Below, piece by piece: positions 2,953-30,268 of a stretch of DNA of 35,046 bases. Source of the stretch: an uncultured Thermogutta sp. GTDB lineage: Bacteria > Planctomycetota > Planctomycetia > Pirellulales > Thermoguttaceae. The notes under the pieces were generated by a model, which saw nothing but the letters and a program-made list of their open reading frames with translations, was not told the DNA's origin and ran no database searches. The translations under genes were made by a program, and so were the position numbers. The stretch covers positions 1-35,046 of the forward strand of contig CAKZMM010000094.1 of NCBI GenBank assembly GCA_937128505.1, in the 5' to 3' direction. Within the stretch, counting starts at the first letter, position 1. Every line of letters starts with the position of its first letter.

Positions 2953-3672
2953 GTGGCCAGGTGGATGTTCCAGGAAATTGAAGCTTCCGTCATGCCAGGT
3001 CATGCCGAGGAGTACCCCGAAAATTGGGAAAATCGGAAGCAGCGAGTACGCATTCGTTTTCGAAAACATGGGGATCTACGCTGGATCGGTCATCGTGATT
3101 TAGTGCGCACAATCGAGCGGGTATTTCGTCGGGCAAACGTCCAGGTGGCGCTCAGTGAAGGTTACCACCCCAAGCCGAGGTTCAGTTTTCCATCGGCTTT
3201 GGCTTTGGGAATCGAAGGCCATGAGGAGGTGTTCGAGGCGATTTTGGTTGATCCGCCTTCCCCGGCGGAGTTACTCAGACGCCTCAATCAGAGCACCGTG
3301 GCAGGTCTGGATTTTCTCGGCGCCACCATTTTGCCTAAAAGGCTCCCGAAGGCACGCGTGGTTCGATGTTCCTACTGCATCGCCATTCCCCGCCAAAATC
3401 GGGAAGCTGTTGCTACTCGGATTCAGCAGCTGCACGAATTAAGCTCTTGCCAGATTACCCGGCCGGGGTCGGGGGCGATGTATGACCTAAAACAATTCTT
3501 GGAAAAGCTTGAGCTTGATCAGGAAATGCTGCATTTCGTCTTGCGTGCCGAATTGGAAGGAGCTCCCGGCCCCCGGGATGTGCTGGGCGCCCTCGGAATC
3601 GAGCACCTCGAAACCGAAGGATGTGTGCTCGTGCGAACCGCGGTAGAGCTTGCCGAGTCCACGGGCGTTTGA
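2953..3672 (+). CDS. TIGR03936 / DUF2344 radical-SAM-linked protein
   Basis: This is a DUF2344 protein of the TIGR03936 family, which usually occurs beside or fused to a B12-binding radical SAM protein of the TIGR03960 type. Its exact function is not established. The conserved block begins near residue 30 with VRIRFRKHGDLRWIGHRDL and continues through SEGYHPKPRFSFPSALALGIEGHEE, both typical of the family. The length is 239 residues from the GTG at 2953. ATG codons at 2965 and 2992 are alternative starts; none has a clearly better ribosome site, and the conserved domain tolerates all three. The next gene, RNase G/E, begins about 105 bases downstream, a pairing seen in many bacteria. The radical SAM partner is not encoded immediately upstream, where ptsI lies, so it is either elsewhere or absent. 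Confidence 0.88.
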   Translation: MARWMFQEIEASVMPGHAEEYPENWENRKQRVRIRFRKHGDLRWIGHRDLVRTIERVFRRANVQVALSEGYHPKPRFSFPSALALGIEGHEEVFEAILVDPPSPAELLRRLNQSTVAGLDFLGATILPKRLPKARVVRCSYCIAIPRQNREAVATRIQQLHELSSCQITRPGSGAMYDLKQFLEKLELDQEMLHFVLRAELEGAPGPRDVLGALGIEHLETEGCVLVRTAVELAESTGV

Positions 3673-3776
3673 GCTTACGGGCAGAATTCGAAGCGGCCCG
3701 TCGACCATAGATCCGGCAATAGTCCTCAGCTGAATCGCGAATGGGTACTCGCCTTAGAGAGGAAGAAGGCGAGTCC

Positions 3777-5435
3777 ATGAAGCAGGAAATTCTCATCAAC
3801 GTTCGTGAGCCCGAGGAATGTCGGATCGCCATTATCGAGGATGGTGTCCTTGAAGAGCTCTACTTCGAGCGAACCGGTCATGCCAGTTACGTCGGGAACA
3901 TCTACAAGGGTGTCATCGTCAATCTGGAGCCGAGTATTCAGGCGGCTTTCGTTGATTTCGGGGTGGGCCGTAACGGCTTTTTGCACATCACGGATGTAGA
4001 GCCGCAATACTTCCGGCAAGCCGGTTATGATCCACGTCAGGTGATGGGGCAGACTTCAGGTCATTCGAGCTCTGGTTCTGCGAGCCAATCCTCGGCGGAC
4101 GTCACGACGGATGCCCTGGCCGATTGGACCGAAGAAGAGGAACCGATGGGTTCCACGAGCCAACGGGTTTACCGGGCTACCGGCCGACCGCGCTTTAAGC
4201 CCCCCATCCAAGAGGTTTTTCGCCGGGGCGATCAAGTCATTGTTCAAGTGATCAAGGAGGCTGTGGGGAACAAAGGCCCCACGCTATCCACTTATATCAG
4301 CATCCCGGGGCGATATCTGGTGCTCATGCCGCCTCTTGGTCGGGTGGGTGTTTCTCGAAAAATCGATGATGAGCAGGCCCGGCGACGTCTCCGGCAGTTA
4401 ATGGCGGAACTCAAGCCGCCGCGGGGCTTGGGGTTCATTGTTCGTACCGCAGGTGCGGACCGAACCAAAAAGGAATTATCGCGAGACTTGGCCTACTTGC
4501 TGCGGTTATGGAAAGTGATTTATCGGCGAATCAAAAAGCTCCCCGCTCCCACCGCCATCTACGAAGAAAGCGACCTCATCATTCGAACCATTCGGGATAT
4601 TTTTACCACCGATGTGGATACGATTTACATCGATGAGCAAGCGGCATTCGAACGTGCCCGCGAATTCCTTCAATTAGTGATGCCGCGGTATGTGAACCGC
4701 TTGAAACTCTATAGCGGTAAGGAGCCGTTATTCCATAAGTATGGCCTCGACAAAGAGATCGCTCGGATTTTTGAGCGCGTGGTGCCGCTCAAGGAAGGAG
4801 GCTCGATTGTCATCGATCAGACCGAAGCTTTAGTGGCGATCGACGTCAATAGCGGGAGTTTCCGCGTCGAAGACTCCGCCGAAGAAACCGCTTTCCGCCT
4901 CAATTTGCTGGCTGCTAACGAAATAGCTCGCCAGATTCGACTGCGGGACCTTGGCGGGGTGATCGTCAATGATTTTATCGACATGCGCAAAGAGAAGCAC
5001 CGGCGAGCCGTTGAGCGCGCATTGCGCGAGGCGGTTCGAAGAGATCGCGCTCGAACTAAGATTCTACGCACAAGTCCCTTCGGACTCATCGAGATGACTC
5101 GGCAGCGGGTGCGGCCCAGTCTTCGCACCACCCTTTTCACCATTTGCCCCACTTGCCGTGGATTAGGCGTAGTGAAAACCACAGAGACCATGGCCATTGA
5201 GGTGATTCGGACTTTGCTTCCATTGACCTTGCGCTCCGATATACGCACTATTCGCGTGACAGTTGCCGACGAAGTCGCCGAATTCCTCAACAACAAGAAA
5301 CGCCGACAGCTTTTGGCCATTGAGGAGGATGGGCAACGCAATATCGAAATCGTTGGGGCCAAAGGCGTTAGTCCGGAGCTGCTGCAAATCGATTGCTTCG
5401 ATGCCCAAGGACTGCCCGTACCATACACGCTTTAG
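3777..5435 (+). CDS. rng: Ribonuclease G/E family endoribonuclease
   Basis: This is a single-strand-specific endoribonuclease acting in rRNA processing and mRNA decay. From the ATG at 3777 it has 552 residues; an in-frame ATG at 3741 would add 12, but the family normally begins MKxEILIN, as here, and AAGG lies 6-7 bases upstream. The S1 domain starts at SYVGNIYKG (about 38) and is interrupted by a low-complexity Ser/Gly/acidic insertion (about 80-140) before resuming at EVFRRGDQVIVQV. The DNase-I-like catalytic region has Asp356 (VAIDVNSGSF) and Asp399 (IVNDFIDM). The zinc-link CPTC is at 457-460. The E. coli RNase E-type C-terminal scaffold is absent, so the protein is G-like. The upstream neighbour is the TIGR03936 gene. 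Confidence 0.95.
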   Translation: MKQEILINVREPEECRIAIIEDGVLEELYFERTGHASYVGNIYKGVIVNLEPSIQAAFVDFGVGRNGFLHITDVEPQYFRQAGYDPRQVMGQTSGHSSSGSASQSSADVTTDALADWTEEEEPMGSTSQRVYRATGRPRFKPPIQEVFRRGDQVIVQVIKEAVGNKGPTLSTYISIPGRYLVLMPPLGRVGVSRKIDDEQARRRLRQLMAELKPPRGLGFIVRTAGADRTKKELSRDLAYLLRLWKVIYRRIKKLPAPTAIYEESDLIIRTIRDIFTTDVDTIYIDEQAAFERAREFLQLVMPRYVNRLKLYSGKEPLFHKYGLDKEIARIFERVVPLKEGGSIVIDQTEALVAIDVNSGSFRVEDSAEETAFRLNLLAANEIARQIRLRDLGGVIVNDFIDMRKEKHRRAVERALREAVRRDRARTKILRTSPFGLIEMTRQRVRPSLRTTLFTICPTCRGLGVVKTTETMAIEVIRTLLPLTLRSDIRTIRVTVADEVAEFLNNKKRRQLLAIEEDGQRNIEIVGAKGVSPELLQIDCFDAQGLPVPYTL

Positions 5436-5639: not shown

Positions 5640-6689
5640 TCATGGAATTTGTGGTGTCTTCCCCATGAGGTGCTGAAGAACGGCAAGCTCCAGAGCCTCG
5701 TAATCGCGATTTGCGGCGCACTGTTCCTCGATTTCCTTCGGAAAGGTTCTCACTTTTTCGACAAGCATGAGGAAGATGGCTCGACTATTGACCAGGTGTT
5801 GTGTAGCACTTTCCGCGGCTTGAGTTCGCATGGCTTTTACATCCAAGCCCACAAACCGGCCGGTAGCAGGGTAGCCACCCAGTTCGAGAACTCTCACCTG
5901 ATTATAGGCCGCCCGTAAATTCGCCGAGCCGAACGCTTTGTCCTGATCGTATTTCAATCCGTTTTGGTCGTTCAAGTGCACACTCCACAATTTACCCTGA
6001 GCCAAGGCAAAGGCCATTTCATCGGATGGATCCAACCCGGCAAGAACTGCATGGGCCGTTTCGATCAAGCCGCCAACGCGGGTCGGATCAATCGTTTGGT
6101 ATGCTAAGGCCAGAGCATGACCGATGGTTGGCACATAAGCATGGTCCATGGGTTCATTGGGCTTGGGTTCAATTGCGATCGCAATTTCTCGATCGTATTC
6201 CAAAATCCGATTTACCGCATCCAGCAATCGCTCGTATGCCACGATGGCATTTTTCGACTCGCGGATATACGTGCCTTCGCGTGCAAGCCAGAGAACGATC
6301 AGATTCGTCCCCAAAGCACGTGCGATGTCGACGGCCCGATATGTGCGTTCCATCGCCCAATTCCGGCATGCAGGATCGTTGGCCGTGAACCCCCCATCAA
6401 CTCCCTTCGGGTTCTCCCACAGTCGTGGGGCTACGAATTCCGCCACGAGTCCTTCCCCATCGAGTAAGGCCTTAACCGCGCTGGCCTTTTTGATCATCTC
6501 GCTGGGGAAAAGATTCTCCATATCCGGCACGGCGTCGTCGTCGTGAAATTGCACGCCGTCGAATCCCAGTTTTTTATAAAGGGCGAGCTTCTTTGCAAAC
6601 TCGACGTTTGGACGTACCGGCGGACCGAAGGGATCTGCCCCCTCGTGAATATTCCACGGACCAAAAGAAAAACGGTAGTCGTTGCTCAT
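5640..6689 (-). CDS. Xylose-isomerase-like TIM-barrel sugar isomerase
   Basis: This protein closely resembles the actinobacterial-type xylose isomerases that interconvert aldo- and ketosugars in the cytoplasm. Landmarks are FHDDD (His49), VLWLAREG, EPKPNEP (Glu174, Lys176), Glu210, His213, KYDQD (Asp248, Asp250) and LDVKAMRT (Asp283). These map with a nearly constant offset of 7 onto Streptomyces Glu181, Lys183, Glu217, His220, Asp255 and Asp257; Asp283 corresponds to Asp287. At the position of metal-1 ligand Asp245, however, this protein has His238 (SVHLND). At 349 residues it is shorter than the usual 385 or so. The start ATG follows GAGGAG by about 9 bases. A GH127 gene lies upstream on the same strand. 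The substrate may not be xylose; the fold and metal site are sure, the substrate is not. Confidence 0.85.
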   Translation of the reverse strand: MSNDYRFSFGPWNIHEGADPFGPPVRPNVEFAKKLALYKKLGFDGVQFHDDDAVPDMENLFPSEMIKKASAVKALLDGEGLVAEFVAPRLWENPKGVDGGFTANDPACRNWAMERTYRAVDIARALGTNLIVLWLAREGTYIRESKNAIVAYERLLDAVNRILEYDREIAIAIEPKPNEPMDHAYVPTIGHALALAYQTIDPTRVGGLIETAHAVLAGLDPSDEMAFALAQGKLWSVHLNDQNGLKYDQDKAFGSANLRAAYNQVRVLELGGYPATGRFVGLDVKAMRTQAAESATQHLVNSRAIFLMLVEKVRTFPKEIEEQCAANRDYEALELAVLQHLMGKTPQIP

Positions 6690-7228
6690 GGGTTTGGGCT
6701 CCTCGACGACGCCTCTATGCGTGAAAAATCCCTTTGACCTAAAATCCGCTAACCCGCACGAAAGTTCGCGCTCCTAAAGTTTATCGACCGCTGATTGTAG
6801 GGGCACAAAACTCACGCTAATTCTGCCCCTTGATACGAGTTTTGACTGTGGCGGCTAAACCTCGGCCACTAAATCTCGGTGCGCAGGAACATGCACCAAT
6901 ACAATTTGCGACTAAACTTTACTTTTCCCGAATGAATTCCGGTAAACCGATGGCAGAATTCGGGCAAATCCGGCACCCATTACGTGCCGGAATCCTGCTT
7001 TATTTCTTTAACGCCCATTCATTCTTTAGCCTGATTGCTCCTTTAGCCTAATCGCACCGAATTAGTCGTTATCCTGGGGGCGCAAAAAAGGCATCTCCTC
7101 CCTAGCGAGAAAAAACGCAAGGACTTGGTCGCGGTAACGCACAAGAAAAGACAGGTTGCGTTCTCAAAGTGAGTTCCAACTTGTACGGAGCAAATTTCGA
7201 CGGTCATCAGACGACAGCTTTTCCCGAA
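6690..7228. other. Gene-free 539-base gap with short repeats and a hairpin
   Basis: No gene is supported between the GH127 and isomerase-like genes. The gap has CTAAAYCTCGG at 6855-6865 and 6869-6879, a 17-base-period duplication with core CTTTAGCCT (7024-7056), and a perfect 8-base stem TCCGGCAC/GTGCCGGA (6969-6976 and 6984-6991) with a 7-base loop. The stem lacks a good T-run on either strand. Its size suggests that the two minus-strand genes are transcribed separately. Confidence 0.5.
7024..7056. repeat. Imperfect tandem duplication, 17-base period
   Basis: The blocks at 7024-7039 and 7041-7056 share 13 of 16 bases, beginning CTTTAGCCT. Their core resembles that of the 2697-2744 repeat (TTTAG, CTGA and ATTGC elements). 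Confidence 0.6.
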
Positions 7229-9754
7229 TCATTCGCCCTCGAATCGCGGCTCCAGCAGCGTTTCATCATACCGCACGGTACGGCATCCAAATACACCACC
7301 GGCGATGCGGCCCGGTCGCGCTTGAAAACGCAGCGTAACCTCGCTTTTTCCCTGGGTCAATTCTGGCGGAATCGGATAGATTACCTCGAAGAATTCATTC
7401 GGCCTATTGTTTCGAAGCTGCTGGGAGGCAATCGTTTGTCCGTCGACTTGAAGCTGGAAGTCCCTTCCGCCGGCATCACTCCCCCAATAGGTACACCAAA
7501 TAGCCATAGGCTGATCGGGAAGGACCTTCATTCGATAGGCGAACCACCCACCGTCAACGGCATGCCGCCAAGCTCGTCCAGAAAATATTCCAGAGGCAGT
7601 ACGCTCTCCATCAACCCCATGTGCCTGCTCGCTCTCCCGATTCCCGATCTGGACTTCATCGACGACATTGCGCAGGAGGGCTTCCCGCCAAAGGCGCCGC
7701 GCTTCCTCGCGACGTTGCAACTCCTTCCATTGTTCCGGACTCATCATTCGCCAGTAAACGTTGTAGCGACCTTCATACTTTCGATAAAGGGGAATCAACT
7801 CCAAATCCCGTGGCTGTGCAAGCCCGGAAGTGACAAACACCATTTTTGCCGGCTCAGCCCGGACATAAGGAATCGGATCATCTCCCTCGCACACTAATAC
7901 AGGAATTTCCCCGTTATCCACCCCTGCACAGAGAAGAACTGGCCCATAAAAAAACGCGATCATTCGGGGGTCATCGGGCATGCACTCCACGCGTAAGCTC
8001 ATCGGCAGCCGAAGCTCCAACCGATCGCCGTCACACCAGTTCCGCTCGATGGTCAAGTAACTACCGGGACGGCTGTCAACATCTACTGGTTGGCCATTCA
8101 AAGTAATTGTGATCGGTTCCACGGCCCACCATGGATGCCGCAAGTGCAGGGCGAATACCACGGGATTCTTGCAGCGGAGGTGAATTTGCACTCGGTCCTC
8201 CTCGGGATATTCGGTCCGCTGCTCCAAGACGACACCTTTTTCCCGCCAATACGCGCACGAGGCAGCGTACAGATTCACATACAAATCATTGGCACCTCGA
8301 AAATAAATGTATTCGCCGTATCGGGCATGATTCTCCATCCCTGTACCTACGCAGCACCAGAAGGAATCGAACGGGGTGCTGAAATGTTTTACCGCACCGT
8401 AATCCAAAAATCCTTTGTAGACGAACATTCCCGACTCCGGATGTTGATGAGCCAAAATGTGGTTGATCAAAGCACGCTCACAATAATCCCCATAACGAGC
8501 ATCGGGATTCCAGCTAAACAAAGTTCGCGTCAGCTTAAGCATGTTGTAGGTGTTGCATGTTTCCGTCGTGTCTTGAAGCCGCGTAGAAAGCTTGCCGGGT
8601 GGCCCGAAGTACTCACCCGCACTATTCCCCCCGTTGACATAGGTATGATGAGCAACCACGGTATCCCAGAAAAACCCGGCAATCGTTTGATACTTAGGTT
8701 CGCCGGTAAGCTCAAACAGTCGAGCGACCCCAATGACCTTCGGAATTTGAGTATTGGCGTGGTGCCCTGCCAGGCGATCCTCACGCGTTGCCAAAAAATC
8801 GAGCACGGCACGATGATAAAACCGTTGCGACAAAGCCAAATATTCTCTTTTACCGGTCAAGGCATAAAGATTGGCCAAAGCCTCGTTCATCCCCCCATGT
8901 TCGCAGATGAGCATCTTTTGCCATTCATCCTCCGATAGATTACCTGTGACTTTGCCCACCCAATTCGCGAAATCTTCCGCGACCTCGAGCGCCGTCGAAT
9001 TGCCGCAATAGACAAACGCATCGATCAAACCGGCGAGCAGTTTATGCAGCGTGTACCAAGGAACCCAAACACCATTGAGGTTGAAACCATCTGCGCGAAT
9101 CTTTCCCTCGGCCAATTCTTGAAATACCCGATCGCCTTCAGGAATCCCACCCACATAACCGGTTCCCATAGCTTTCTGGCACTCCGCCAATTCGGTCACA
9201 ATGGCATCAACCCGGTCGCGAAAGCGTTCATCGCGTCGCGCCCGATACATTCGCGAAGCAGCCGACAAGTAGTGTCCCAAGCTATGCCCGGCGATTCCCA
9301 TGCTTTCCCAGCCGCCGTAAATAGGGCCTTTGGGCTCGAGCCCAGCAAATTTTCGAAAATTGTGGAGCAGTCGATCCGGCTCTAATCGCAACAAATAGGC
9401 GGCATCGAGTTCCTGTGCGCGATAAAAGGGACCTCCGAGAAGCTCTACCTCGTTGACATCAAAGGGCACGACAGGCGGTTGGAAAGCCTGGGGCACAACA
9501 GGCTTTGGCAGCGGCAAAGAGGAACAATCTTCCGCCAACTCGTCGGAGCATGCATGACAGCCGGCCATAGCCTCATTGCCTCGATAGCCAGTGAAAGTTT
9601 GAATCCCCAGTAAGGCAAGAATGTTGAGGATACCTAGACACCAAATTGCAAAAGCCGAAGATGCTGTTACGGTCTTCCGAAGGCCTATGATGGCCGTTGG
9701 CGTCCCCCCAAAGCAGGCGAATTTGTCGGCGAAGCCAATTACCGGTTTTGTCAT
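7229..9754 (-). CDS. GH127-type beta-L-arabinofuranosidase (DUF1680)
   Basis: This family hydrolyses beta-L-arabinofuranosyl linkages of plant-type glycans using a zinc-bound cysteine nucleophile. The alpha/alpha-barrel region contains WESMGIAGHSLGHYLSA (about 149-165), Glu381 in GEYFGPPG (likely acid/base), TTETCNTYNM with Glu398 and Cys400, and SFWCCVGTGMENH with Cys467 and Cys468. These match the Glu/Cys/Cys/Cys zinc set of the characterised family member HypBA1. A beta-sandwich region follows, and the last 150 or so residues look like an accessory beta domain. A hydrophobic stretch at about 32-52 indicates export or membrane anchoring, followed by a short Cys-containing segment (GCHACSDELAEDC). 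The start ATG at 9754 has GGAGGG 8 bases upstream. At 841 residues it is longer than bare catalytic forms. The exact substrate is unknown. Confidence 0.92.
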   Translation of the reverse strand: MTKPVIGFADKFACFGGTPTAIIGLRKTVTASSAFAIWCLGILNILALLGIQTFTGYRGNEAMAGCHACSDELAEDCSSLPLPKPVVPQAFQPPVVPFDVNEVELLGGPFYRAQELDAAYLLRLEPDRLLHNFRKFAGLEPKGPIYGGWESMGIAGHSLGHYLSAASRMYRARRDERFRDRVDAIVTELAECQKAMGTGYVGGIPEGDRVFQELAEGKIRADGFNLNGVWVPWYTLHKLLAGLIDAFVYCGNSTALEVAEDFANWVGKVTGNLSEDEWQKMLICEHGGMNEALANLYALTGKREYLALSQRFYHRAVLDFLATREDRLAGHHANTQIPKVIGVARLFELTGEPKYQTIAGFFWDTVVAHHTYVNGGNSAGEYFGPPGKLSTRLQDTTETCNTYNMLKLTRTLFSWNPDARYGDYCERALINHILAHQHPESGMFVYKGFLDYGAVKHFSTPFDSFWCCVGTGMENHARYGEYIYFRGANDLYVNLYAASCAYWREKGVVLEQRTEYPEEDRVQIHLRCKNPVVFALHLRHPWWAVEPITITLNGQPVDVDSRPGSYLTIERNWCDGDRLELRLPMSLRVECMPDDPRMIAFFYGPVLLCAGVDNGEIPVLVCEGDDPIPYVRAEPAKMVFVTSGLAQPRDLELIPLYRKYEGRYNVYWRMMSPEQWKELQRREEARRLWREALLRNVVDEVQIGNRESEQAHGVDGERTASGIFSGRAWRHAVDGGWFAYRMKVLPDQPMAIWCTYWGSDAGGRDFQLQVDGQTIASQQLRNNRPNEFFEVIYPIPPELTQGKSEVTLRFQARPGRIAGGVFGCRTVRYDETLLEPRFEGE

Positions 9755-12952: not shown

Positions 12953-13606
12953 TCAATCCGGCAGGATGGCCACGGCACGCACCGGTGATCCATCACCCCC
13001 AACAAGCCGCAGGGGAAATGCCGCCAACGTGAATTCCTCCGGCAAAAGCTCGAGGTGAGCCAAGCCTTCCAGCAACACAATTTCCACTCCCTTTTTCAGG
13101 AGCGCATAATGACACGCTCGGCCTGCGATCTTGCTTGGTGTGGGCAAATCCATTCCCAGTAGCACAATGCCGGTGGCGGCAATCCATTCCGCTGCTTCTA
13201 ACGTGAGCGATGGAAGATCGGTGAAATACTCCGGGGTGTTAAAGGTTCGATCCCACCCAGTGCGGAGTATTACCCGCCCCCCCGCTTGGAAGCTCGCAGC
13301 ATGCGGCTGGAGCATTTCCGGGGTAATCGGGGTTTTTGGAACCAAGGCACTTCCCGGGGCTAGGTCAACCAATCGAGCCGGTCCGAAGAATCGCCCCAGC
13401 GGAATCTGATCTACCGTTACCCCATCGGCATAAAAATGTGCCGGGGCATCCAAATGGGTCGCCTGATGCGAGCCTAATTTCAACTGGCTCACCCGCACGC
13501 CATGTTCGGCCATGGTCCTGAAGGCCGTTATTTTTAAAGGAGGATCACCGGGGTAACTAAGCTGACCGTCTGCGATCGGGTGGGATAGATCGACTAGCCT
13601 TGGCAT
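12953..13606 (-). CDS. Cyclase-family metal-dependent hydrolase
   Basis: This protein belongs to the family of kynurenine formamidase (KynB) and related 'cyclase' hydrolases, which open amides or lactones using divalent metal. The metal motif is SHQATHLDAPAHF, with His47, His51, Asp53 and His57; the usual HxGTHxDxPxH has Ala in place of Gly here. The N-terminal VDLSHPIADGQLSYPGDP is also typical. The length of 217 residues is normal. The start ATG at 13606 follows GGAGAG by 4 bases. There is no tryptophan-degradation gene nearby, so formamidase activity is not supported by context and the substrate is open. Confidence 0.9.
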   Translation of the reverse strand: MPRLVDLSHPIADGQLSYPGDPPLKITAFRTMAEHGVRVSQLKLGSHQATHLDAPAHFYADGVTVDQIPLGRFFGPARLVDLAPGSALVPKTPITPEMLQPHAASFQAGGRVILRTGWDRTFNTPEYFTDLPSLTLEAAEWIAATGIVLLGMDLPTPSKIAGRACHYALLKKGVEIVLLEGLAHLELLPEEFTLAAFPLRLVGGDGSPVRAVAILPD

Positions 13607-13726
13607 GCAACTCTCCGCTGGTTAGGCAAAAACTACTCAAGAAACTGCTCCGCTTATCCCCAACGAGATCAGGCAAGATTTTTCGCGACGACACATGGCA
13701 CCAGATGCGCAACGATAGTTCATTAC

Positions 13727-13768
13727 CTGAAGTTAACCGCCTGAAATTTACCGCCTAAAAATCACCGA
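13727..13768. repeat. 14-base tandem repeat, three copies
   Basis: Three directly abutting 14-base units lie at 13727-13740, 13741-13754 and 13755-13768, all of the form CTRAAR-TYACCGM. They are 121-162 bases upstream of the cyclase start codon. Confidence 0.85.
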
Positions 13769-14048
13769 CTGTTGAGGTGGTATCGCAAGAGTATACTGCT
13801 GCCGGCAAATGGCGGTTAGAGCCGGCGGCTCCCAATCCATGCTAACTTGTCGGGGATTGTTATTAACGATCTTACTGACGATAGGTTCCGCAAACCTCAC
13901 ATAAGCGCTTACAAGATTAGTAGCGTTTATTCTCAGATGAAGCTTTTCTTAAAATGGAAGGGCTTTCCTTGTTCTGTGTGGTACCTCGCACGACGGAAAG
14001 GGTTGACGAAATTGGTTGGGGAGAGAGCGGAAACGGGCTGCCTTCATT

Positions 14049-14078
14049 TGTATACAGTAACGATGACTTTCGTATACA
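14049..14078. repeat. Inverted repeat TGTATAC-N16-GTATACA
   Basis: Perfect 7-base arms lie at 14049-14055 and 14072-14078 with a 16-base spacer. The shape resembles a binding site for a dimeric regulator, but no gene is positioned to use it. Confidence 0.6.
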
Positions 14079-15406
14079 TTTTTCAATAAATAATAAGGCA
14101 CCGCGGGGAAAATTCCGCACGAAAAAAGAATCTGATGTCCGCGGACGTTAAAGAGGTAGAAAGGGGGTGATTTTCAGACATCGGCAGTGCATGAGCCGCA
14201 AGGTGCTCTTCTCCGGGTGCTCCGACCCCGAAGAAGCCGTGCTTGTACTATCCCCGGTATCGATAAGCTTGGAAGATGAGAGCTGAAGCCTTCGCAAGTC
14301 GCGCATGGAAGAGAGGAAGAGAAAGTGTAACGACGCTCCGAGCTCAGATGGTCGCCCAAAAGTTGTCCGCAGATTTCTTTAAGCTGTGCTGACCCCCATT
14401 TTTGCAGACGGCCGGAGTGCGACTGCAGTGTAAAGTAATAACGTTGACGGGCTTGTCTGTCTCGAATGAAGTGCTTACCCGGCCGCCAGGCGGAGACTGT
14501 TGCGAGAAGTTTCGCGTGACAATTGCACGAATCACTGCATATATCGATATATATCGATGGCCGCACTACCCCGCAATCCCCCACCCGGTGAAATCGAGAA
14601 GCAATCAGTGGAGTCAAAAACAATCAAATAGAATTTCTGAAGTTTAAAATTTGCATGAGTCGCACCAACCCTGTTGCCCTAGCCCAAGGCAACCATGGTG
14701 GGTTGATGACTCGGTCCAAATAATTAGGAATTGTTATTTAAACTACCGCTAGAAGAAACGATTTTAATGCAGTTTGGTTTTTTCCGAGTAAGCCCTTAAA
14801 AGACGAGGTCCGATACATTGAGCTTTGTGAGCCCCTTATTCTGCAGATACTTCTACGGTTCAACCCGTCGAAACCGGCGACTCGCCGGGCGAAAGCTCGC
14901 TGGCTCAGTTCGCTCCAATGGTGGCAACTTTTCCATAAAGCGATCAAGCCGCCCCAAGTCATTTCTTTGAGTCGCCCACCAAACGCCGGCTCATCCCCTT
15001 CGAAACCGGGAACTGGCCCGGCGATCCTCGCTTCAAATTTCCTGTCTTTGGCTAATGGATCGTCTCCTATTGGCAAAGCGTCTTTCCCCCGAAAGGATTT
15101 CGGGCATTCCTTCTTGACTTTTCGTGGGTCAAGAAAAAAATTCCATTAGACTATTTAATATCGTCCCTACGTAAACGGGCGTCCAATATGATGCTTGTAA
15201 TTCTTGGGTGAATCGCTGTTAGGTCTGAAGCGTTTCAGAACCATCGGATCAAGGCCCCTTCAGACAAGATTTGCTGGAATTAGCGGCCGACAGGTCACGC
15301 ATATTTTTAAGCGGAGGTAGCCGAGCTCCACGATATTGTTATTGTTCCCTCGCAAACATTCGGTTGATTTTTGGATTAGTTTTACGTTTTTGCTTTTGCC
15401 TCCCTG

Positions 15407-15436
15407 TTCAAAGCTACTGATTCTTGCTAATATAAC
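15407..15436 (+). promoter_or_regulatory. Possible promoter TTCAAA-N18-TATAAC
   Basis: TTCAAA (15407-15412) matches 4 of 6 bases of the -35 consensus and TATAAC (15431-15436) 5 of 6 of the -10, with an 18-base spacer. A strong hairpin and T-run follow within 70 bases, so a short transcript is conceivable. Confidence 0.25.
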
Positions 15437-15459
15437 TGTATCGTCCCCCTCCCGGTTGT

Positions 15460-15502
15460 GGCCGTGTCCTGAATGGATGTTTGGGGCACGGCCCGCTTTT
15501 TT
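15460..15502 (+). terminator. Stem-loop followed by T6, likely intrinsic terminator
   Basis: GGCCGTGTCC (15460-15469) pairs with GGGCACGGCC (15484-15493) over 10 base pairs, including one G-T wobble. The loop is 14 bases and CGC plus six T follow (15497-15502). There is no supported gene upstream on this strand for more than 4 kb, so what it terminates is unclear; a small RNA is one possibility. Confidence 0.6.
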
Positions 15503-15947
15503 CTATCTGTTTTCGACTTGTTTATCTTCCACCTATCTTCGACCCTTTTTTCGACCTTGCCCGAAAACAGCTATCTGCCAACGATGCTAAACACGTCGAA
15601 GTCTTTCAGCTTTCGACCGTGTCAGCAGTTCGGAGACATCAACCGATATTTCTGAACGCTTGCCGTGCTTCTAGCCGTCGCAAGCCAATTTGCGGCTTTG
15701 CGCATCGGCCTGAGGAGGGCAAAACTCCTTCAGATTACTTTCGGATGAATAGCCAGTTTTCCGCGACGGAATCTTGCTGCCGTCTAATGCCAAGTCGCCG
15801 TGTGCCACAGACTTCACCCTCCGCACAAAAGTAATTCGAGCATTTACTGAAGGCAAGTTGGTCTTTCGTTGTACTATTCGGCTATCGTTCGCCCGGGCAG
15901 GGAGATGATTTCGTTCAAGGAGCATGTGGATCAAGGAGGGCGAACCC

Positions 15948-16097
15948 ATGTCGAAGAAATTCGCCCTGATGCTGAGGGCCAAAGAGCGTGAAACTCTGAG
16001 GGAACTGGCGAAAAAGGGCAAGGAGGCAGGCTGGAAGTTGCGACAAGCCCAGGCAGTTGATCGCGGAGAGGTGGCGGCCCATTCCGGCCCGACCTGA
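15948..16097 (+). pseudogene. IS630-type transposase N-terminal remnant
   Basis: This is a 49-codon frame starting MSKKFALMLRAKERETLREL and running through KKGKEAGWKLRQAQA before a TGA at 16095. The pattern of a basic start, an ERexLxxL helix, a GK turn and a KLxxA helix matches the N-terminus of IS630-family transposases common in planctomycetes. After the alanine near residue 36 the similarity is lost, and no DDE catalytic region follows in any frame within the next 500 bases. The ATG has an excellent ribosome site, AAGGAGGG (15933-15940), 7 bases upstream. It is best read as the left fragment of a decayed element rather than a functional gene, although it is still translatable. Assignment rests on a short segment. 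Confidence 0.5.
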
Positions 16098-16612
16098 TCA
16101 GCCGCAACGCCGAGCGGATCGGTGTGGACTGCCAGCTCAGCACCGAAGAAGCAGGCACGCTACTGAAACATCTCTCTCCGAGAGTTATGACATTATGGTG
16201 CGGTAGTATTTTGATTCGGATCGCCTGAAAAGCGTTTCCGGATTTTTGCGCACTGGATCCTTCCCTAAAAACGCCACCGGAGGCGCTATCAATGTGTCTA
16301 ATAAAGTTCGCGACGAAGCGGCCGAAATCACGCCTACCTGCCCTCTCTGCCCTTTGAAGGAGTTCCTAACAGCTATCTTTCTCCCTCTCCCCCCAAAACT
16401 CGGACTGCTTCATGCAAGGCGATAGTTGCAGCCGAGCTCTCGGTCCCCGTAAAATGATACCACGTCAGTAAACGACATGACAAAAACGCGTAGCCACGGC
16501 TTTGCAGGGTCCACGTTTGGCAAGTAGGTATTTCTTTTCCAGGAGATGCCGAAAGGTCGACCTTCGAGCCGCAACCGCAAATACCGGCCTAAAACGGATA
16601 AGGACCCGATCG
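16098..16612. other. Non-coding stretch between IS remnant and PIMT gene
   Basis: This 515-base segment has no supported gene. An in-frame upstream extension of the PIMT gene to 16502 exists, but it lacks family resemblance and a ribosome site. The PIMT promoter presumably lies here; I see no clear one. Confidence 0.45.
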
Positions 16613-17479
16613 ATGTCCTACTCGAGCCGACTGTTGCCGGTAGTGGCGTGGATTGCAGTGGGAATCCTTCTGATTTTGGGCATTCTAACCGGGGGGGCAT
16701 TCCGCATGTTTTGGTGGGAAAAACCCACGTTGGGCGATCCGATGGTTACACAAGTTTCTTGGGCAAACCAGGCCGAAAAACCACCACTGACTACCGAGCA
16801 AGTTGCTAGCTTGGTCACCTCTCGACTTCCAAATGAAGAGCCGGAATTCCTCGAAGCGCGAAAGCGGATGCTCATCCATCATTTACACGGGCGAGATATT
16901 ACGGACTCCGCAGTCCTTCGGGCTATGGGAAGAGTACCACGGCAGCTTTTCGTCTCCGAACCACTTCGGGAATTAGCTTACGCGGATCACCCGTTGCCCA
17001 TCGGCCACGAACAGACCATTTCGCAACCTTACATCGTCGCTTTGATGACGCAGCTTGCGCAGCCGAGCCCTGAATCTCGGGCTTTAGACATCGGCACCGG
17101 CTCCGGCTATCACGCCGCAGTCTTGGCCGAAATCTGCAAAGAAGTGTACAGCATCGAGATTATTAAACCGCTTGCCGAGGAGGCCGAAAAACGGCTCCAA
17201 TCCCTCGGTTACACGAATATCACGGTACGACATGGAGACGGTTACCGTGGTTGGCCTGAAAAGGCACCGTTTCATGTGATCATCGTTGCGGCTGCCCCGG
17301 ACCATGTGCCGCAACCCCTGGTGGACCAATTGGCCCCGGGGGGAAGACTCGTGCTGCCGGTGGGACGCTTTTACCAACAATTGCTTGTCGTCGAAAAACA
17401 GCTTGACGGAACCGTACGCCGGATCCCCAGCGTACCCGTCAGTTTTGTGCCGATGACCGGCGAAGCTGAACGCCAATAG
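16613..17479 (+). CDS. pcm: Protein-L-isoaspartate O-methyltransferase with membrane segment
   Basis: This enzyme methylates isoaspartyl residues in damaged proteins using S-adenosylmethionine. The PIMT domain occupies about 82-280: the pre-motif QTISQPYIVALMTQL (134-148), SAM motif I ALDIGTGSGYHAAVL (157-171), VYSIEI, and the late motif LAPGGRLVLPVG. The catalytic domain is complete. Unusually, it follows an N-terminal hydrophobic helix (about 7-30, VVAWIAVGILLILGILTGGA) and a 50-residue linker, giving 288 residues against about 210 for the bare enzyme. The start ATG at 16613 has AAGGA 8 bases upstream; a longer frame from 16502 is unlikely. The gene stands alone, downstream of the gene-poor region and convergent with lgt. 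Because SAM is cytoplasmic, the membrane orientation is an open question. Confidence 0.9.
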   Translation: MSYSSRLLPVVAWIAVGILLILGILTGGAFRMFWWEKPTLGDPMVTQVSWANQAEKPPLTTEQVASLVTSRLPNEEPEFLEARKRMLIHHLHGRDITDSAVLRAMGRVPRQLFVSEPLRELAYADHPLPIGHEQTISQPYIVALMTQLAQPSPESRALDIGTGSGYHAAVLAEICKEVYSIEIIKPLAEEAEKRLQSLGYTNITVRHGDGYRGWPEKAPFHVIIVAAAPDHVPQPLVDQLAPGGRLVLPVGRFYQQLLVVEKQLDGTVRRIPSVPVSFVPMTGEAERQ

Positions 17480-17697: not shown

Positions 17698-19002
17698 TTA
17701 TCGGTGTGCCCCAAGTGCCGCCATTGCCTTTCCTGGTTTCGCGCCGAGCGTGTATATCCAGATTAATCCAGCACCCACAAGGGCAACGATGCTAATAAGT
17801 TGCGAAATGGTCAGCCCCACGCCCCCCAGAACGAGGAGGCTTGGCTCGTCGTCCCGGATAATCTCCAAAATAAACCGGCTCACAGGATACGCGGTAAACA
17901 TCATTGCCAGCACCTGCCCATCATGACGGCAAAATGGCTCGCAAGCCATTAGAAAAAGACACAAAAGCAACGCGTTGAAGGCACTGTAAAGCTGGGACGG
18001 ATGCACGGGTAAACTCTGCGGTGCTTGATTGGCAATCGACCATCGGTAAACCCGCGTTTGATCCTGAACTGAAATTTCTAAGGTTTCGGTAATCTGATGA
18101 GCCCAAATGAGTTCGGATTGGGCCGCTTCCACCGTCGGTGTCGGCCTTCCATTGATAGCCACCATCCGCTGGCCTGGTTTCAGCCCCTGCCTTTCCGCCT
18201 CAGAGCCCGGTTGTACGGCGCTGACTATCGGGGGATCGCCCCCCGAACCGCGAAATTTCAATCCGTGAATAAAAGCTTGGCCTGATTGAACCTGATGAAC
18301 ATGCGCAAGGCTTCCCGCAGGAAAGCGCACAGCCCACGGCAGTTCGCACACTCCCCCGAAGCAACATCCGTTCAAAAAACAGCCTAATCGACCGATGGCT
18401 AACCCGAGCATAAAACTGGGGGCCATCAGGTCGAGGGTTGCCCAAACCGGAACCCGCCACCAGCGCAGGAAAACGAGGGTGCCGGCAATTCCGCCGATGA
18501 CCGACCCGTAAACCACCAATCCTCCGCGCGTCACATTGAAGACATTGATCGCTGTGCGCAACCAATCGACCTGCCCGCTCGGTGCTTGAACGCGAATGTG
18601 CGACCAGTACTCCACGACATAGAAAAGCCTGGCTCCGATAATTCCAGAAACAAATGCCCAAAAGGCTAGTGACAGGATGAAATCGCTATCAAATCCGCGA
18701 TGACTGCCTCTCCAAATCGCGAGCCCAACCGCAGCAACCACCGCCAGAAGCAACATCACCCCGTACCCGCGAATGGGCAGCCCTTGCGGCTCAAGGAGCG
18801 CCGGCAAAACAAAAATGATGATGAAGGCGACTACCGCCGCCAAAAGAAGCTGATCCCGCAATTCGCCGGTCCAGCCGGTTCGGCGCCAGACTCGATATGC
18901 GATAACTCCCACGCTCAATAACCAAACGGCCAATAACCATCCAAAACCGAACACGGGAATTCCGAGGAATTCCCTAGGGATTAAAAAAAGCGTTGGCCTC
19001 AT
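17698..19002 (-). CDS. lgt: Prolipoprotein diacylglyceryl transferase with PDZ insertion
   Basis: Lgt transfers diacylglycerol from phosphatidylglycerol to the lipobox cysteine of prolipoproteins in the inner membrane. The canonical core begins at GLPIRGYGVML (74-84) and includes RGGLVVYGSVIGG (159-171), the signature GRLGCFLNGCCFGG (204-217), HPSQLYSAFNALLL (334-347) and RFILEIIRDDE (376-386), with several membrane helices. Two features are unusual. An extra N-terminal part of about 73 residues contains two more hydrophobic helices. Between the signature and HPSQLY lies a soluble insertion (about 250-325) with PDZ-like sequence, VSAVQPGSEAERQGLKPGQ and MVAINGRP. The total of 434 residues compares with about 290 in E. 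coli. The start ATG has AAGG about 8 bases upstream. panC and folK follow further along on the same strand but across a large gap. Confidence 0.93.
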   Translation of the reverse strand: MRPTLFLIPREFLGIPVFGFGWLLAVWLLSVGVIAYRVWRRTGWTGELRDQLLLAAVVAFIIIFVLPALLEPQGLPIRGYGVMLLLAVVAAVGLAIWRGSHRGFDSDFILSLAFWAFVSGIIGARLFYVVEYWSHIRVQAPSGQVDWLRTAINVFNVTRGGLVVYGSVIGGIAGTLVFLRWWRVPVWATLDLMAPSFMLGLAIGRLGCFLNGCCFGGVCELPWAVRFPAGSLAHVHQVQSGQAFIHGLKFRGSGGDPPIVSAVQPGSEAERQGLKPGQRMVAINGRPTPTVEAAQSELIWAHQITETLEISVQDQTRVYRWSIANQAPQSLPVHPSQLYSAFNALLLCLFLMACEPFCRHDGQVLAMMFTAYPVSRFILEIIRDDEPSLLVLGGVGLTISQLISIVALVGAGLIWIYTLGAKPGKAMAALGAHR

Positions 19003-22455: not shown

Positions 22456-23277
22456 ATGAATGATTTGACCGTGCTGACAAGCGCTCCCCAACCGGAAAAA
22501 ACGTCCCAGCTAAGAATCGGCGGTGCTAACTACTTAAATTCGTGGCCCTTGACCCGTTACCTGCGGGATTGGTTTCCGGATGCTGAGATTAACTTTGACG
22601 TTCCCAGCCAATTGGCCGAGGACTTGGCCGCCGGCAAGCTTGATGTGGCGTTAATCCCCTCCATTGAGTTTTTCCGCATTCCCGGTGCGAACGTCGTTTC
22701 GGATGCATGTGTGGCCTGCCAAGGGGAAGTGCGGAGTGTCAAGCTGCTCAGTCGTGTTCAGCCCAATAAGATCCGCACGTTGGCATTGGATCAAACTTCG
22801 CGAAGTAGTGTTGTTCTGGGTCAATTGTGGCTTCGGGAACGCTGGCAGTGTTGGCCGCAGACCGTCCCATTGAGTGCTGATTTTCCTTTGGGAAGCTCGG
22901 CTTGCGACGCCGCCATCCTCATCGGTGACCGAGCTATGCAGACAGAGGGGAATTGGGACGGGTTTACCTTAGTCTATGACTTGGGGAGCGAGTGGTACAG
23001 TTGGACGGGGTTACCCTTCGTTTTTGCCCTGTGGGTGTGCCGCCCCGGGATCGATGCCAATCAGCTTCACCAAGGGTTTGCGGCAGCCCGGGATGAAGGA
23101 ATTCGAAAGATTCCGCAGCTTTCCCGAGAGGCCTCCGAGCGTTTGGGAATCCGCGAAGAGGTCTGTTGCACCTATTTGGCAGAAAAGCTGAGATTTCACT
23201 TCGATGAAGCGGCTCAGGCCGGTCTGGAGCGCTTTCGCCAGTTGGCAGTGAAGCATCACCTTCTCCGGCCGCGTTGA
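22456..23277 (+). CDS. mqnA: Chorismate dehydratase (menaquinone, futalosine route)
   Basis: MqnA converts chorismate to 3-enolpyruvoylbenzoate, the first step of the futalosine pathway to menaquinone. The protein has a periplasmic-binding-like fold. Family features are LRIGGANYLNSWPLTRYL (about 19-36), DVALIPSIEFFRI (64-76), SVKLLSRVQPNKIRTLALDQTSRSSV, and DAAILIGDRAM with the typical ligand-pocket segment, followed by YDLGSEWYSWTGLPFVFALW. The length of 273 residues is normal. The start ATG at 22456 lacks a strong Shine-Dalgarno sequence. mqnC, a later step of the same pathway, follows on the same strand after 525 bases. The other pathway genes are not in the window. Confidence 0.94.
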   Translation: MNDLTVLTSAPQPEKTSQLRIGGANYLNSWPLTRYLRDWFPDAEINFDVPSQLAEDLAAGKLDVALIPSIEFFRIPGANVVSDACVACQGEVRSVKLLSRVQPNKIRTLALDQTSRSSVVLGQLWLRERWQCWPQTVPLSADFPLGSSACDAAILIGDRAMQTEGNWDGFTLVYDLGSEWYSWTGLPFVFALWVCRPGIDANQLHQGFAAARDEGIRKIPQLSREASERLGIREEVCCTYLAEKLRFHFDEAAQAGLERFRQLAVKHHLLRPR

Positions 23278-23802
23278 GATGTTGCGCTAAGACGTATAGG
23301 CCGGTGACGAAGGCGCACTTGGCAAGAACGCGCCGGACCGTGGTTTAAGCAATCGGTTTAGCTTGATCCACCCGGATAGGATTGAAGAGATCGTTTCGGA
23401 TAACCGCAAATACCGGAGCGAGACCGCTCGGTTTAGCGTGGCTCGGCCGATCGTAGGAGAGGCAATTCCTTTTTTACGTGTGTGTGGAGGCATTTCCGAT
23501 CCTATCCGAGTTTATGGAGAATTGGGTGGCATTTCCCAAGGCGGCGGCATGAAAATCCGAAAAGCCTTCAGCTCCCGCTTTCGGGGCAAGCGTTGATTAT
23601 GGCTCCTCAGTTTTTGATTTTCGCCTAAAAGAAGCTCGTTTTCATTTTCGGCTGGAACAAATTCGCTGGTATCGAACCGGTTATTGACGCAAGCCTTTCG
23701 CCTTGCCCAAAAATCAACGGTACTGGGATTTATAAAACTTGTTTGGTGGTCAGTAACTTCTTGTTTTCTTGTTGGGTTCTTTCAGGCGGTAAATTTGTTT
23801 CA
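23278..23802. other. mqnA-mqnC gap, no gene supported
   Basis: These 525 bases separate two genes of one pathway. A 77-codon TTG-started frame (23363-23596) has no recognisable family. The 12-base CGGTTTAGCKTG-like element occurs twice, near 23354 and 23430. TATAAA near 23731 could be a -10 for mqnC but lacks a matching -35. Nothing else is seen. Confidence 0.4.
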
Positions 23803-24933
23803 ATGAAACTTCAGGCCATGAATCGTGATATTTTTAATCTGCTCGAATATGCGGCGGGTGGCGGTCGGATTAGTCCGAGGGATGCCCTTCGATTATTGAA
23901 CGAGGCCCCACTAACGGCCCTAGGTGCTGCTGCCGATACACGGTGCCGGCAACTCCATCCGGATGGTTATCGCACTTATCATATCGATCGGAATATCAAC
24001 TACTCCAACGTGTGTGTAGCCGGATGCCGGTTTTGTGCATTCTGGCGGGGGAAAAATTCGCCGGAGGCCTATGTGCTTTCCTTCGAAGATCTCTTCCGGA
24101 AAATTGAAGAGACCATTGCCCTTGGCGGCGATCAAATTCTTTTGCAGGGCGGATTGCATCCGGATTTGCCACTGGATTGGTACGAAGATCTGCTCCGTGC
24201 CATTAAGGAAAGATTTCCTCAAATCAATATTCATGGGTTTAGCCCCCCAGAAATCGAGCATTTCAGCCAACTTTCGGGCTTGCCGATTCGCGAGGTTTTG
24301 ATCCGTCTGCGCCGTAGCGGCCTCGGGAGTCTTCCAGGCGGCGGAGCCGAGATTTTAGTCGAGCGGATCCGTTCCCAGCTTAGTCCGAACAAGGTTTCTG
24401 CCGAGAAATGGTTAGAGATATGTCGGACTTGGCACGAACTTGGAGGGCGAAGTTCAGCCACCATGATGTTCGGTCATGTCGAGACTTTGGCCGACCGGGT
24501 AGAGCACTTGGAACGGATTCGTGAGCTTCAGGACGAAACGGGTGGTTTCACGGCGTTTATACCCTGGACATTTCAACCCGGTGACACGCCCATGCGCGAA
24601 GTTCCGCGGGTCGGCGCGTTTGATTACTTGCGCACCTTGGCGGTTGCCCGGCTTTTCCTGGACAATTTTCCCAATATCCAGGCAAGTTGGGTGACCCAGG
24701 GCCTCAGAATTGGACAGTTGGCCCTGCGATTCGGGGCCAATGACATGGGAAGCCTCATGATTGAGGAAAACGTGGTGGCGGCTGCCGGCGTGCGCTTTCG
24801 CTGTACAGAAGCCGAGCTGCGGCAAGCTATCCGAGATGCGGGTTTCGAGCCCCGGCGACGCAATGTTTTTTACGAGCTCTTAGAGCCTGAAGTGACGCAA
24901 GCTACGCAAAACTTAATTCCGGCTAAATCGTAA
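23803..24933 (+). CDS. mqnC: Cyclic dehypoxanthinyl futalosine synthase, radical SAM
   Basis: MqnC is a radical SAM enzyme that cyclises dehypoxanthine futalosine in menaquinone synthesis. The iron-sulfur cluster motif is CVAGCRFC (Cys71, Cys75, Cys78 from the start chosen), preceded by YHIDRNINYSNV and followed by AFWRGK and LLQGGLHPDLPLDWYEDLL. HGFSPPEIEHFS and SSATMMFGHVET are also typical of the family. From the ATG at 23803 it has 376 residues, near the usual size; the frame extends to a TTG at 23743, but that adds residues without similarity, and an ATG at 23818 is also possible. There is a poor ribosome site (AGGCGG about 14 bases upstream). mqnA upstream supports the assignment to MqnC rather than the related MqnE. 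Confidence 0.94.
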   Translation: MKLQAMNRDIFNLLEYAAGGGRISPRDALRLLNEAPLTALGAAADTRCRQLHPDGYRTYHIDRNINYSNVCVAGCRFCAFWRGKNSPEAYVLSFEDLFRKIEETIALGGDQILLQGGLHPDLPLDWYEDLLRAIKERFPQINIHGFSPPEIEHFSQLSGLPIREVLIRLRRSGLGSLPGGGAEILVERIRSQLSPNKVSAEKWLEICRTWHELGGRSSATMMFGHVETLADRVEHLERIRELQDETGGFTAFIPWTFQPGDTPMREVPRVGAFDYLRTLAVARLFLDNFPNIQASWVTQGLRIGQLALRFGANDMGSLMIEENVVAAAGVRFRCTEAELRQAIRDAGFEPRRRNVFYELLEPEVTQATQNLIPAKS

Positions 24934-28945: not shown

Positions 28946-30268
28946 ATGCAACGACGCCGATTTTTGAAGTGGTCTGCGGTGGCTGGAGCAACCGCTTGGG
29001 CTTTGCCCCAGTTTGTGCCGGCTTCAGCTAAACAAGCAAACGATCGCATCGGCGTAGCGGCAATGGGGCTGCGGGGCCGCGGCGGTCAGCTCTTAAACGC
29101 CTTTGCGGAGCAGCCGGAGGTCGAAATTCGCTACGTGTGCGACGTAGATCGAAGAGTGCTCCTCGCCGCGGCAGAAACCACGGAAAAGCGCACAGGCCGC
29201 CGCCCGAAAGCGATCAAGGACTTTCGCGAAGCACTCCAAGATCCCACGGTGGCGGTGCTGGTCAACGGTGCCCCCGATCACTGGCATGCCATCCCCACCA
29301 TCATGGCCTGTCAAGCGCGGAAAGATGTTTATGTGGAAAAGCCGGATGGCCACAACATCCTTGAAAGCCGCGCGATGGCGCATGCCGCCGAGAAGTACCA
29401 GCGGATCGTACAACTGGGTACTCAGGCCCGAAGCGAAGCTGTGATGTTTTCTGCCGTGAAGTTCATTGCGGAAGGGAATATCGGAAAGGTACGCTTTGCC
29501 AAGGCTTGGGAAAGTGCGTATCAGGGTGATATCGGCCGGCCAGCCGACTCTCAGCCCCCCGAGGGGGTGGATTATGACCTGTGGTTAGGGCCGGCTCCTC
29601 AGCGGCCTTTCAATCTGCGCCGCTTCCACGGGAGTTGGCGTTGGTTTTTCGACTACGGTACGGGCGACCTCGGCAACGACGGCGTTCATCGGTTGGATAA
29701 AGCCCTTTGGGGTGTGCAAACCGCCCTGGCCGGCGAAGGAAAGTCGTTACCGAAGCTGCCGGAGGCTGTGTCGGCCCATGGAGGTAAGCGATATTATGAC
29801 GACCTCCAGGAGTGGCCCGATACGATGATGGTTACCTACGATTTTCCTGAGGTCGTGATAACCTACGAATTACGCTTATGGAGCCCGTACCACCTACACG
29901 AGGAAAGTGAAGGGGCCCAAGTGCTTGGCGATCAGGGCTTCATCACCATCGGCAACGGGCGCTGGAGGGCCTACGATCGCCGTGGCCAGTTAATCAAGCA
30001 GGAACTTGGCGAGGACGGCACCATAGCCCACATCCGAAACTTCCTGGAGTGTGTTCGAAGCCGGAAGCGTCCCAACGCCGATCTGCCCACGGTAGGTCAC
30101 ATTTGTAGTATGATGTGCCATTTGGGCAATGCGGCTTGGCGAGTGGGACGCACCGTGCGATTCGACCCGAACACCTACCGGTTTATCGGGGACGAGGAGG
30201 CCAACCAGTTCCTTACTCGGCGAGTTTATCGCGAACCTTGGCGGCTACCCTCTCTCGAAGAAATCTAG
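28946..30268 (+). CDS. Tat-exported Gfo/Idh/MocA oxidoreductase
   Basis: This is an NAD(P)-dependent sugar-type oxidoreductase of the Gfo/Idh/MocA family. The N-terminus MQRRRFLKWSAVAGATAWALP carries a twin-arginine signal, cleaved near ASA-KQ, so the folded enzyme with its cofactor is likely exported. The Rossmann start is IGVAAMGLRGRG (35-46), and the conserved EKP (131-133) holds the catalytic lysine of the family. GTGDLGNDGVHRLD contains the usual C-domain Asp/His pair. The length is 440 residues from the ATG at 28946, which has GGGAG about 8 bases upstream; the frame extends 23 codons further without similarity. The substrate is not predictable; planctomycetes hold many paralogues. It may be cotranscribed with the DUF4091 gene. 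Confidence 0.93.
   Translation: MQRRRFLKWSAVAGATAWALPQFVPASAKQANDRIGVAAMGLRGRGGQLLNAFAEQPEVEIRYVCDVDRRVLLAAAETTEKRTGRRPKAIKDFREALQDPTVAVLVNGAPDHWHAIPTIMACQARKDVYVEKPDGHNILESRAMAHAAEKYQRIVQLGTQARSEAVMFSAVKFIAEGNIGKVRFAKAWESAYQGDIGRPADSQPPEGVDYDLWLGPAPQRPFNLRRFHGSWRWFFDYGTGDLGNDGVHRLDKALWGVQTALAGEGKSLPKLPEAVSAHGGKRYYDDLQEWPDTMMVTYDFPEVVITYELRLWSPYHLHEESEGAQVLGDQGFITIGNGRWRAYDRRGQLIKQELGEDGTIAHIRNFLECVRSRKRPNADLPTVGHICSMMCHLGNAAWRVGRTVRFDPNTYRFIGDEEANQFLTRRVYREPWRLPSLEEI

Follow-up and report, generated by a model that had tools for sequence, protein, structure and literature searches.

Xylose isomerase (XI) is a textbook and industrial enzyme in which Asp245 is one of the four ligands of metal 1. 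The D-tagatose 3-epimerase-type enzymes carry a His at the matching metal position, with a single metal site and two catalytic Glu. Metal 1 of the Streptomyces XI binds O2 and O4 and is held by Asp245, which comes within 3.18 Å of O4 of xylitol (PMC8070043, in the part describing this site). In the passages of PMC10908623 that deal with the active site, Mn1 of the L-rhamnose isomerase from L. rhamnosus is held by Glu228, Asp261, His288 and Asp328 and is engaged by O2/O3 of L-rhamnose and by O3/O4 of D-allose; a metal-mediated hydride shift involving two metals is proposed there, and an excerpt of PMC11194214 also contains the shared two-metal mechanism. Since D-allose binds Mn1 through O3/O4, a His ligand at metal 1 fixes no single binding mode.

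We analysed a stretch of 35,046 nucleotides from an uncultured Thermogutta sp. (contig CAKZMM010000094.1), hereafter the window, which encodes on the minus strand a xylose-isomerase-like protein, P0001 (5640..6689). The open reading frame runs from an ATG at 6689 to a stop codon ending at 5640 and gives 349 aa; a GAGGAG motif (6699..6704, minus strand), located 9 nt before the ATG, is a putative ribosome-binding site. Between positions 5400 and 7400 no promoter-like site was detected and three terminator-like sites were found, against 2.9 by chance, while scans of the whole window for RNA families and tRNAs found nothing. The sole Pfam match of P0001 is to PF01261, a broad family (76.9 bits, cut-off 31.1), and in the NCBIfam scan the protein passed the cut-off of no model. 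By sequence, the solved structures most similar to P0001 are class I XIs, including the Streptomyces enzyme 1muw (phmmer E 2.7e-53), and the identity of P0001 to the Streptomyces XI is about 36% (Foldseek). The AlphaFold model, built from 42 alignment rows, is a TIM barrel (mean pLDDT 87.4, pTM 0.88). Among the matches listed, its closest solved structures are also class I XIs (Foldseek, VIA-align 2), with the Thermus XI 1bxb as the best (VIA-align 2: Z 38.6, rmsd 2.3, 341 residues); the 50 VIA-align rows listed are XIs only, one per entry, and the ranking is therefore one among XIs and not one of XI versus L-rhamnose isomerase.

A preliminary description of this DNA had recognised P0001 as XI-like with Asp245 replaced by His, from residues aligning mostly at a constant offset of 7. 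Both points hold in the alignment with 1muw: the offset is exactly 7 from E181 to D257 (E181, K183, E186, E217, H220, D245, N247, D255 and D257), 5 at H54 and D57, 4 at W16, D287 and K289, and 3 at W137. Six of the seven ligand residues of the two-metal site are kept, as are the catalytic Lys, His and Asp of XI, and the sole change among the metal ligands relative to the Streptomyces enzyme is that of D245 to His238, the codon of which lies at 5976..5978 (minus strand, computed from the start of the open reading frame). His occupies the D245 column in all 98 homologues that cover it, out of 99 rows of which one is a gapped fragment, and in 107/107 of a wider de-duplicated set (108 rows, again including one gapped fragment), these homologues having been chosen by similarity to P0001 and being 55-80% identical to it, with the zone between 55% and 37% unsampled. 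With such constancy, neither chance nor a sequencing error accounts for the His. The conservation across orthologues that had been suggested as a check is thus found, and orthologues with Asp are absent from the homologues sampled, of which those from named genomes are the best 80 of 564 confirmed stretches and more came from other genome sets. Both Glu, the Lys, the metal-2 His/Asp/Asp, the metal-1 Asp and the ring-opening His/Asp are likewise kept in P0001 and in 106/106 full-length homologues. Among the XIs aligned, all 5 class I sequences have Asp in this column. Twelve rows were initially assigned to class II, and Asp is present in 11 of them; the remaining one, L103, shows His, but its alignment is unlike that of a class II XI and it was excluded, leaving 11/11. 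The contact of His238 with a metal is one that we infer, because the model contains no metals and the loop carrying Asp248 and Asp250 has low confidence (mean pLDDT 57 over residues 241-250).

Compared with class I XI (Streptomyces/Thermus type, TIGR02631), P0001 presents the same fold and the same ring-opening His/Asp and isomerisation Lys, the metal-2 ligands, Lys183 and His54/Asp57 all having their counterparts. The metal-1 set, in contrast, is Glu, Glu, Asp, Asp in class I XI and Glu174, Glu210, His238, Asp283 in P0001, and the score against TIGR02631 reaches only 212.7 bits for a cut-off of 447. The family of P0001 also differs by T90A, N92R and F94W, the resulting Ala87, Arg89 and Trp91 being fixed in 107/107 homologues (one fragment gapped). 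Trp20 is absent, and P0001 is shorter than the class I enzymes, which have about 387 aa. With class II XI, P0001 shares the other metal ligands, the Lys and His54/Asp57, but the identity is about 29%, the D245 site is Asp in all the class II rows kept, and the score against TIGR02630 is 68.6 bits (cut-off 533.25). Against the L-rhamnose isomerase model TIGR02635, P0001 scores 28.9 bits (cut-off 531.35). The His that the preliminary description had named at the metal-ligand position of L-rhamnose isomerase is nevertheless present, both as His288 on Mn1 in the passages of PMC10908623 cited above and in L192, an L-rhamnose-isomerase-like protein from a genome of the same order that has His in the His238 column, as P0001 does. 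L192 itself stays under the TIGR02635 cut-off (487.1 bits against 531.35) and aligns badly outside the core, with Arg at His49 and Glu at Asp283; the residue matching XI Glu217 is Asp in L192, whereas P0001 has Glu210 and lacks this L-rhamnose-isomerase Asp. Judged by its residues, P0001 combines an XI scaffold with a predicted metal 1 of rhamnose-isomerase-like type.

The phylogeny agrees with a separate group. After masking of the His column, P0001 and its 106 homologues (107 rows) fell on one side of a branch with an SH-aLRT of 99, apart from 5 class I and 11 class II XI rows, in a quick search without bootstrap from which two long-branch rows, the L-rhamnose-isomerase-like L192 and L103, were left out. 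When both were kept, the L-rhamnose-isomerase-like row was placed inside the P0001 family, its branch having a length of 10, and L103 grouped with class I, odd placements that we took for a long-branch effect. The identities to P0001 also show a gap, as matches in 60 genomes are either at least 58% or at most 34% identical and those in eight genomes either at least 55% or at most 37%. The family looks set apart on this basis, intermediates being of a kind that the searches at stricter E could not have shown. Its carriers, counted with the centre genome of each set, are 19 of 60 relatives and, at stricter E, 15 of 294 genomes in a phylum sample, 5 of 148 in the Paenibacillus family and 1 of 158 in the class of locus L072, this one being L072's own genome. 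By bin label, which may be wrong, other carriers among the best 80 of 564 belong to Verrucomicrobia, Hydrogenedentota, Sumerlaeota, Poribacteria, Kiritimatiellae, Lentisphaerae and Bacteroidetes.

The genomes carrying this gene mostly contain another one of XI type. The host holds an ordinary class II XI elsewhere (C27), of 450 aa by its first start codon, scoring 721.9 bits against TIGR02630 (cut-off 533.25), and 18 of the 19 carriers among the 60 relatives, the host included, have a second match, 26-31% identical and of class II XI type, although only that of the host was compared with the XI model. All host matches to the xylulokinase model are under the cut-off. The preliminary description had proposed a sugar isomerase or epimerase of different specificity, and its first half gains from these data: with a complete class II XI encoded elsewhere in the host, it is plausible that P0001 has changed in specificity. 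If instead P0001 were an ordinary D-xylose (glucose) isomerase tolerating the change of Asp245 to His, it would be a second, redundant XI. This we regard as unlikely: class I XIs are its closest solved structures among the matches listed, its other metal ligands and its catalytic Lys, His and Asp are those of XI, and in L072 (6807-10601, a Herpetosiphonaceae metagenome-assembled genome) the gene is located between xylA and xylB, but the His swap is fixed in the family together with three further changes around the pocket, the score is less than half of the XI cut-off, and 18 of the 19 carriers have the other, class II-type match. The L072 locus itself has two sides, as its order of class I xylA, P0001 homologue and xylB (gaps of 24 and 36 bp, with xylA and xylB over their cut-offs) was seen once and places a canonical xylA only 24 bp upstream of the family gene.

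In the window, the upstream neighbour is a GH127 beta-L-arabinofuranosidase-like gene (7229..9754, minus strand; PF07944, 424.2 bits), about 540 bp from the P0001 gene, and the convergent neighbour encodes an RNase E/G family protein (3741..5435, plus strand; PF10150, 343.4 bits). A functional link to the arabinofuranosidase, as earlier suggested, has to be abandoned: a GH127 match occurs in the flanks of 1/80 loci (best 80 of 564), L040, and it is a weak one of 27% over 196 aa, so that this gene was ruled out as a conserved partner. The RNase E/G gene adjoins the family gene also in L009 (77%), the single such case among the best 80 of 564 loci; directly before it lies a gene for a TIGR03936 radical-SAM-associated protein (the two spanning 2965-5435 of the window, plus strand), and this pair is also found in L009. 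Elsewhere in the window, a prolipoprotein diacylglyceryl transferase, Lgt (17698-19002, minus strand), has its Pfam match at residues 70-417 and PDZ matches at 249-296 inside it; it seems to carry an inserted PDZ domain and scores 116.5 bits against TIGR00544 (cut-off 118.9). Menaquinone-type genes, VitK2_biosynth (PF02621) followed by a CofH/MqnC-like radical SAM protein, occupy 22456-24933 (plus strand), and about 3 kb at 13514-16633 have no called gene and only short open reading frames on both strands.

Across the family, a single common operon was ruled out, as the contexts differ by clade, with dehydrogenase, aldolase, dehydratase or deacetylase genes as neighbours, and no common substrate is therefore visible. 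Phycisphaerae-type loci present the order FAD_oxidored, P0001 homologue, PIG-L, NagB-like, PfkB, DUF4432 and mannitol-dehydrogenase-like, in which the families were scanned for L051 and the clusters comprise 8 to 13 loci. The NagB label comes from a conserved 309-aa family (L051 9839-10768 and six relatives) having no Pfam or NCBIfam match at E 1e-5 and with a remote resemblance to glucosamine-6-phosphate deaminase (profile E 6.4e-4 to 7lqn). Four loci have GntR, a DeoC-type aldolase and Gfo/Idh before the P0001 homologue (families scanned for L155), and two have the homologue followed by a galactarate/altronate-dehydratase-like gene (families scanned for L154). In the Paenibacillus locus L062, the order is DegT, levoglucosan-dehydrogenase-like, P0001 homologue and IolE-like.

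Some of these contexts bear on another explanation, in which P0001 would be a lyase, hydratase or dehydratase acting on oxidised (3-keto) sugars or cyclitols beside Gfo/Idh dehydrogenases, in the manner of LgdB1/LgdB2, enzymes of the levoglucosan pathway (in the parts of PMC10066097 and PMC7676230 devoted to it). A Gfo/Idh gene cluster lies within 6 kb in 26/97 loci, on the same strand in 24 of these 26, and the neighbours in L062 include the levoglucosan-dehydrogenase-like protein (424.9 bits, cut-off 650) and, on the other side, a protein about 30% identical to putative LgdB1 proteins. We nonetheless give this explanation slightly less credit than that of a plain XI, since the full isomerase residue set would go unexplained and the Gfo/Idh background is high, judged by the 63 NF052479 matches in the host genome. 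The identity with LgdB that the Paenibacillus neighbours suggested was tried against the neighbourhoods of 8 genes over the lgdA cut-off, in which LgdB-type proteins were recognised by position and size only, and rejected for want of a meaningful match, the best one to lgdA-adjacent proteins being that of a homologue (31% over 39 aa, E 0.001), with E 0.6 for P0001. The window has a Gfo/Idh protein of its own at 28946-30268 (plus strand), nearest to the model of BT_2158-type glycoside 3-dehydrogenase (138.8 bits, cut-off 750), with a protein of about 1000 aa showing a trace of GH123 similarity only encoded upstream.

The epimerase half of the earlier proposal fares worst, a ketose C3-epimerase of the D-tagatose 3-epimerase type being very improbable, because P0001 keeps all the isomerase metal-2 ligands and the isomerisation lysine and has Asp283 where the second catalytic Glu of such enzymes would be expected, against which stand the His that P0001 would share with them at the metal position and a low score with the 5-keto-L-gluconate epimerase model (27.1 bits, cut-off 300).

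Sugar kinases recur near the gene. PfkB was found in the examined flanks of 25 of 106 non-redundant loci (window excluded), the other 81 being without it; in 23 it lies within four genes on the same strand, and in 9 it is directly adjacent on the same strand. One PfkB cluster groups 11 loci in planctomycete relatives near the window, and in L205, L206 and L209 the kinase sits further downstream by one or two genes, a HAD-type gene preceding it in L205. The 113 PfkB matches in about 105 Mb of 20 relatives correspond to a density that predicts about 1.5 for the 1.39 Mb of flanks. In this comparison, six of the PfkB neighbours seeded the model applied to the flanks, the threshold there was laxer, the background came from planctomycetes with some of the 113 matches being fragments, and related loci were counted several times. 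The pairing with a kinase arises in at least three clades, to which the FGGY pair of L072 is added. On the contig of the P0001 gene there is no PfkB match in the host or in two relatives of the same genus, and the three host matches to the L026 kinase (best 34%) are all on other contigs.

Taken together, we put at roughly 0.6 the probability that P0001 is a two-metal aldose-ketose isomerase with an L-rhamnose-isomerase-like metal 1 and a specificity other than D-xylose, and that part of the family supplies its product to a ketose kinase. An isomerase of other specificity is indicated because the residues of the hydride shift are intact and the metal-1 replacement is located in the region that recognises the hydroxyls of the substrate, and because most carriers possess a further XI-type gene and kinases are repeatedly found close by. 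From these features we infer the activity, the mechanism and the changed specificity as follows. The protein would be a cofactor-free isomerase of the XI fold belonging to a separate branch, in which metal 1 would be held by Glu174, Glu210, His238 and Asp283 and metal 2 by Glu210, His213, Asp248 and Asp250. His49/Asp52 would perform ring opening, and the 1,2-hydride shift would be carried out by Lys176 together with a mobile metal 2. His238 and the fixed Ala87, Arg89 and Trp91 would alter the way the substrate is bound in favour of an aldose other than D-xylose, which the enzyme would convert to its ketose. Some members of the family would pass this ketose on to a PfkB or FGGY kinase encoded nearby for phosphorylation.

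A bolder version of the aldose-ketose isomerase can be put forward only tentatively: the family may form a third branch of XI, neither class I nor class II, with a Glu/Glu/His/Asp metal 1 gripping the substrate by O2/O3 rather than O2/O4, and with Arg89, at the place of XI Asn92, reading a new group at the distal end of the sugar, which would make P0001 an entry enzyme for an uncommon sugar. The target of Arg89 would be, for example, the acid group of a uronic acid, as the adjacent altronate/galactarate-dehydratase-like gene in two loci could indicate, or an amino sugar, in keeping with the PIG-L deacetylase and NagB-like deaminase of some Phycisphaerae-type operons. If true, this third branch would be an unrecognised enzyme passed sparsely among planctomycetes, Verrucomicrobia, Chloroflexota, Paenibacillus and others. 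Our literature search, which covered few subscription journals and is not proof, found, among the papers listed, no XI branch with His at the Asp245 site. A natural branch with a ligand of L-rhamnose-isomerase type fixed in an XI site that is otherwise largely intact provides a convenient test case for the role of metal 1 in specificity. Because genes of this type score far below the XI cut-offs and yet are nearest to XI, they are open to mislabelling, and knowing their substrate would allow sugar use by planctomycetes and other environmental bacteria to be predicted more correctly.
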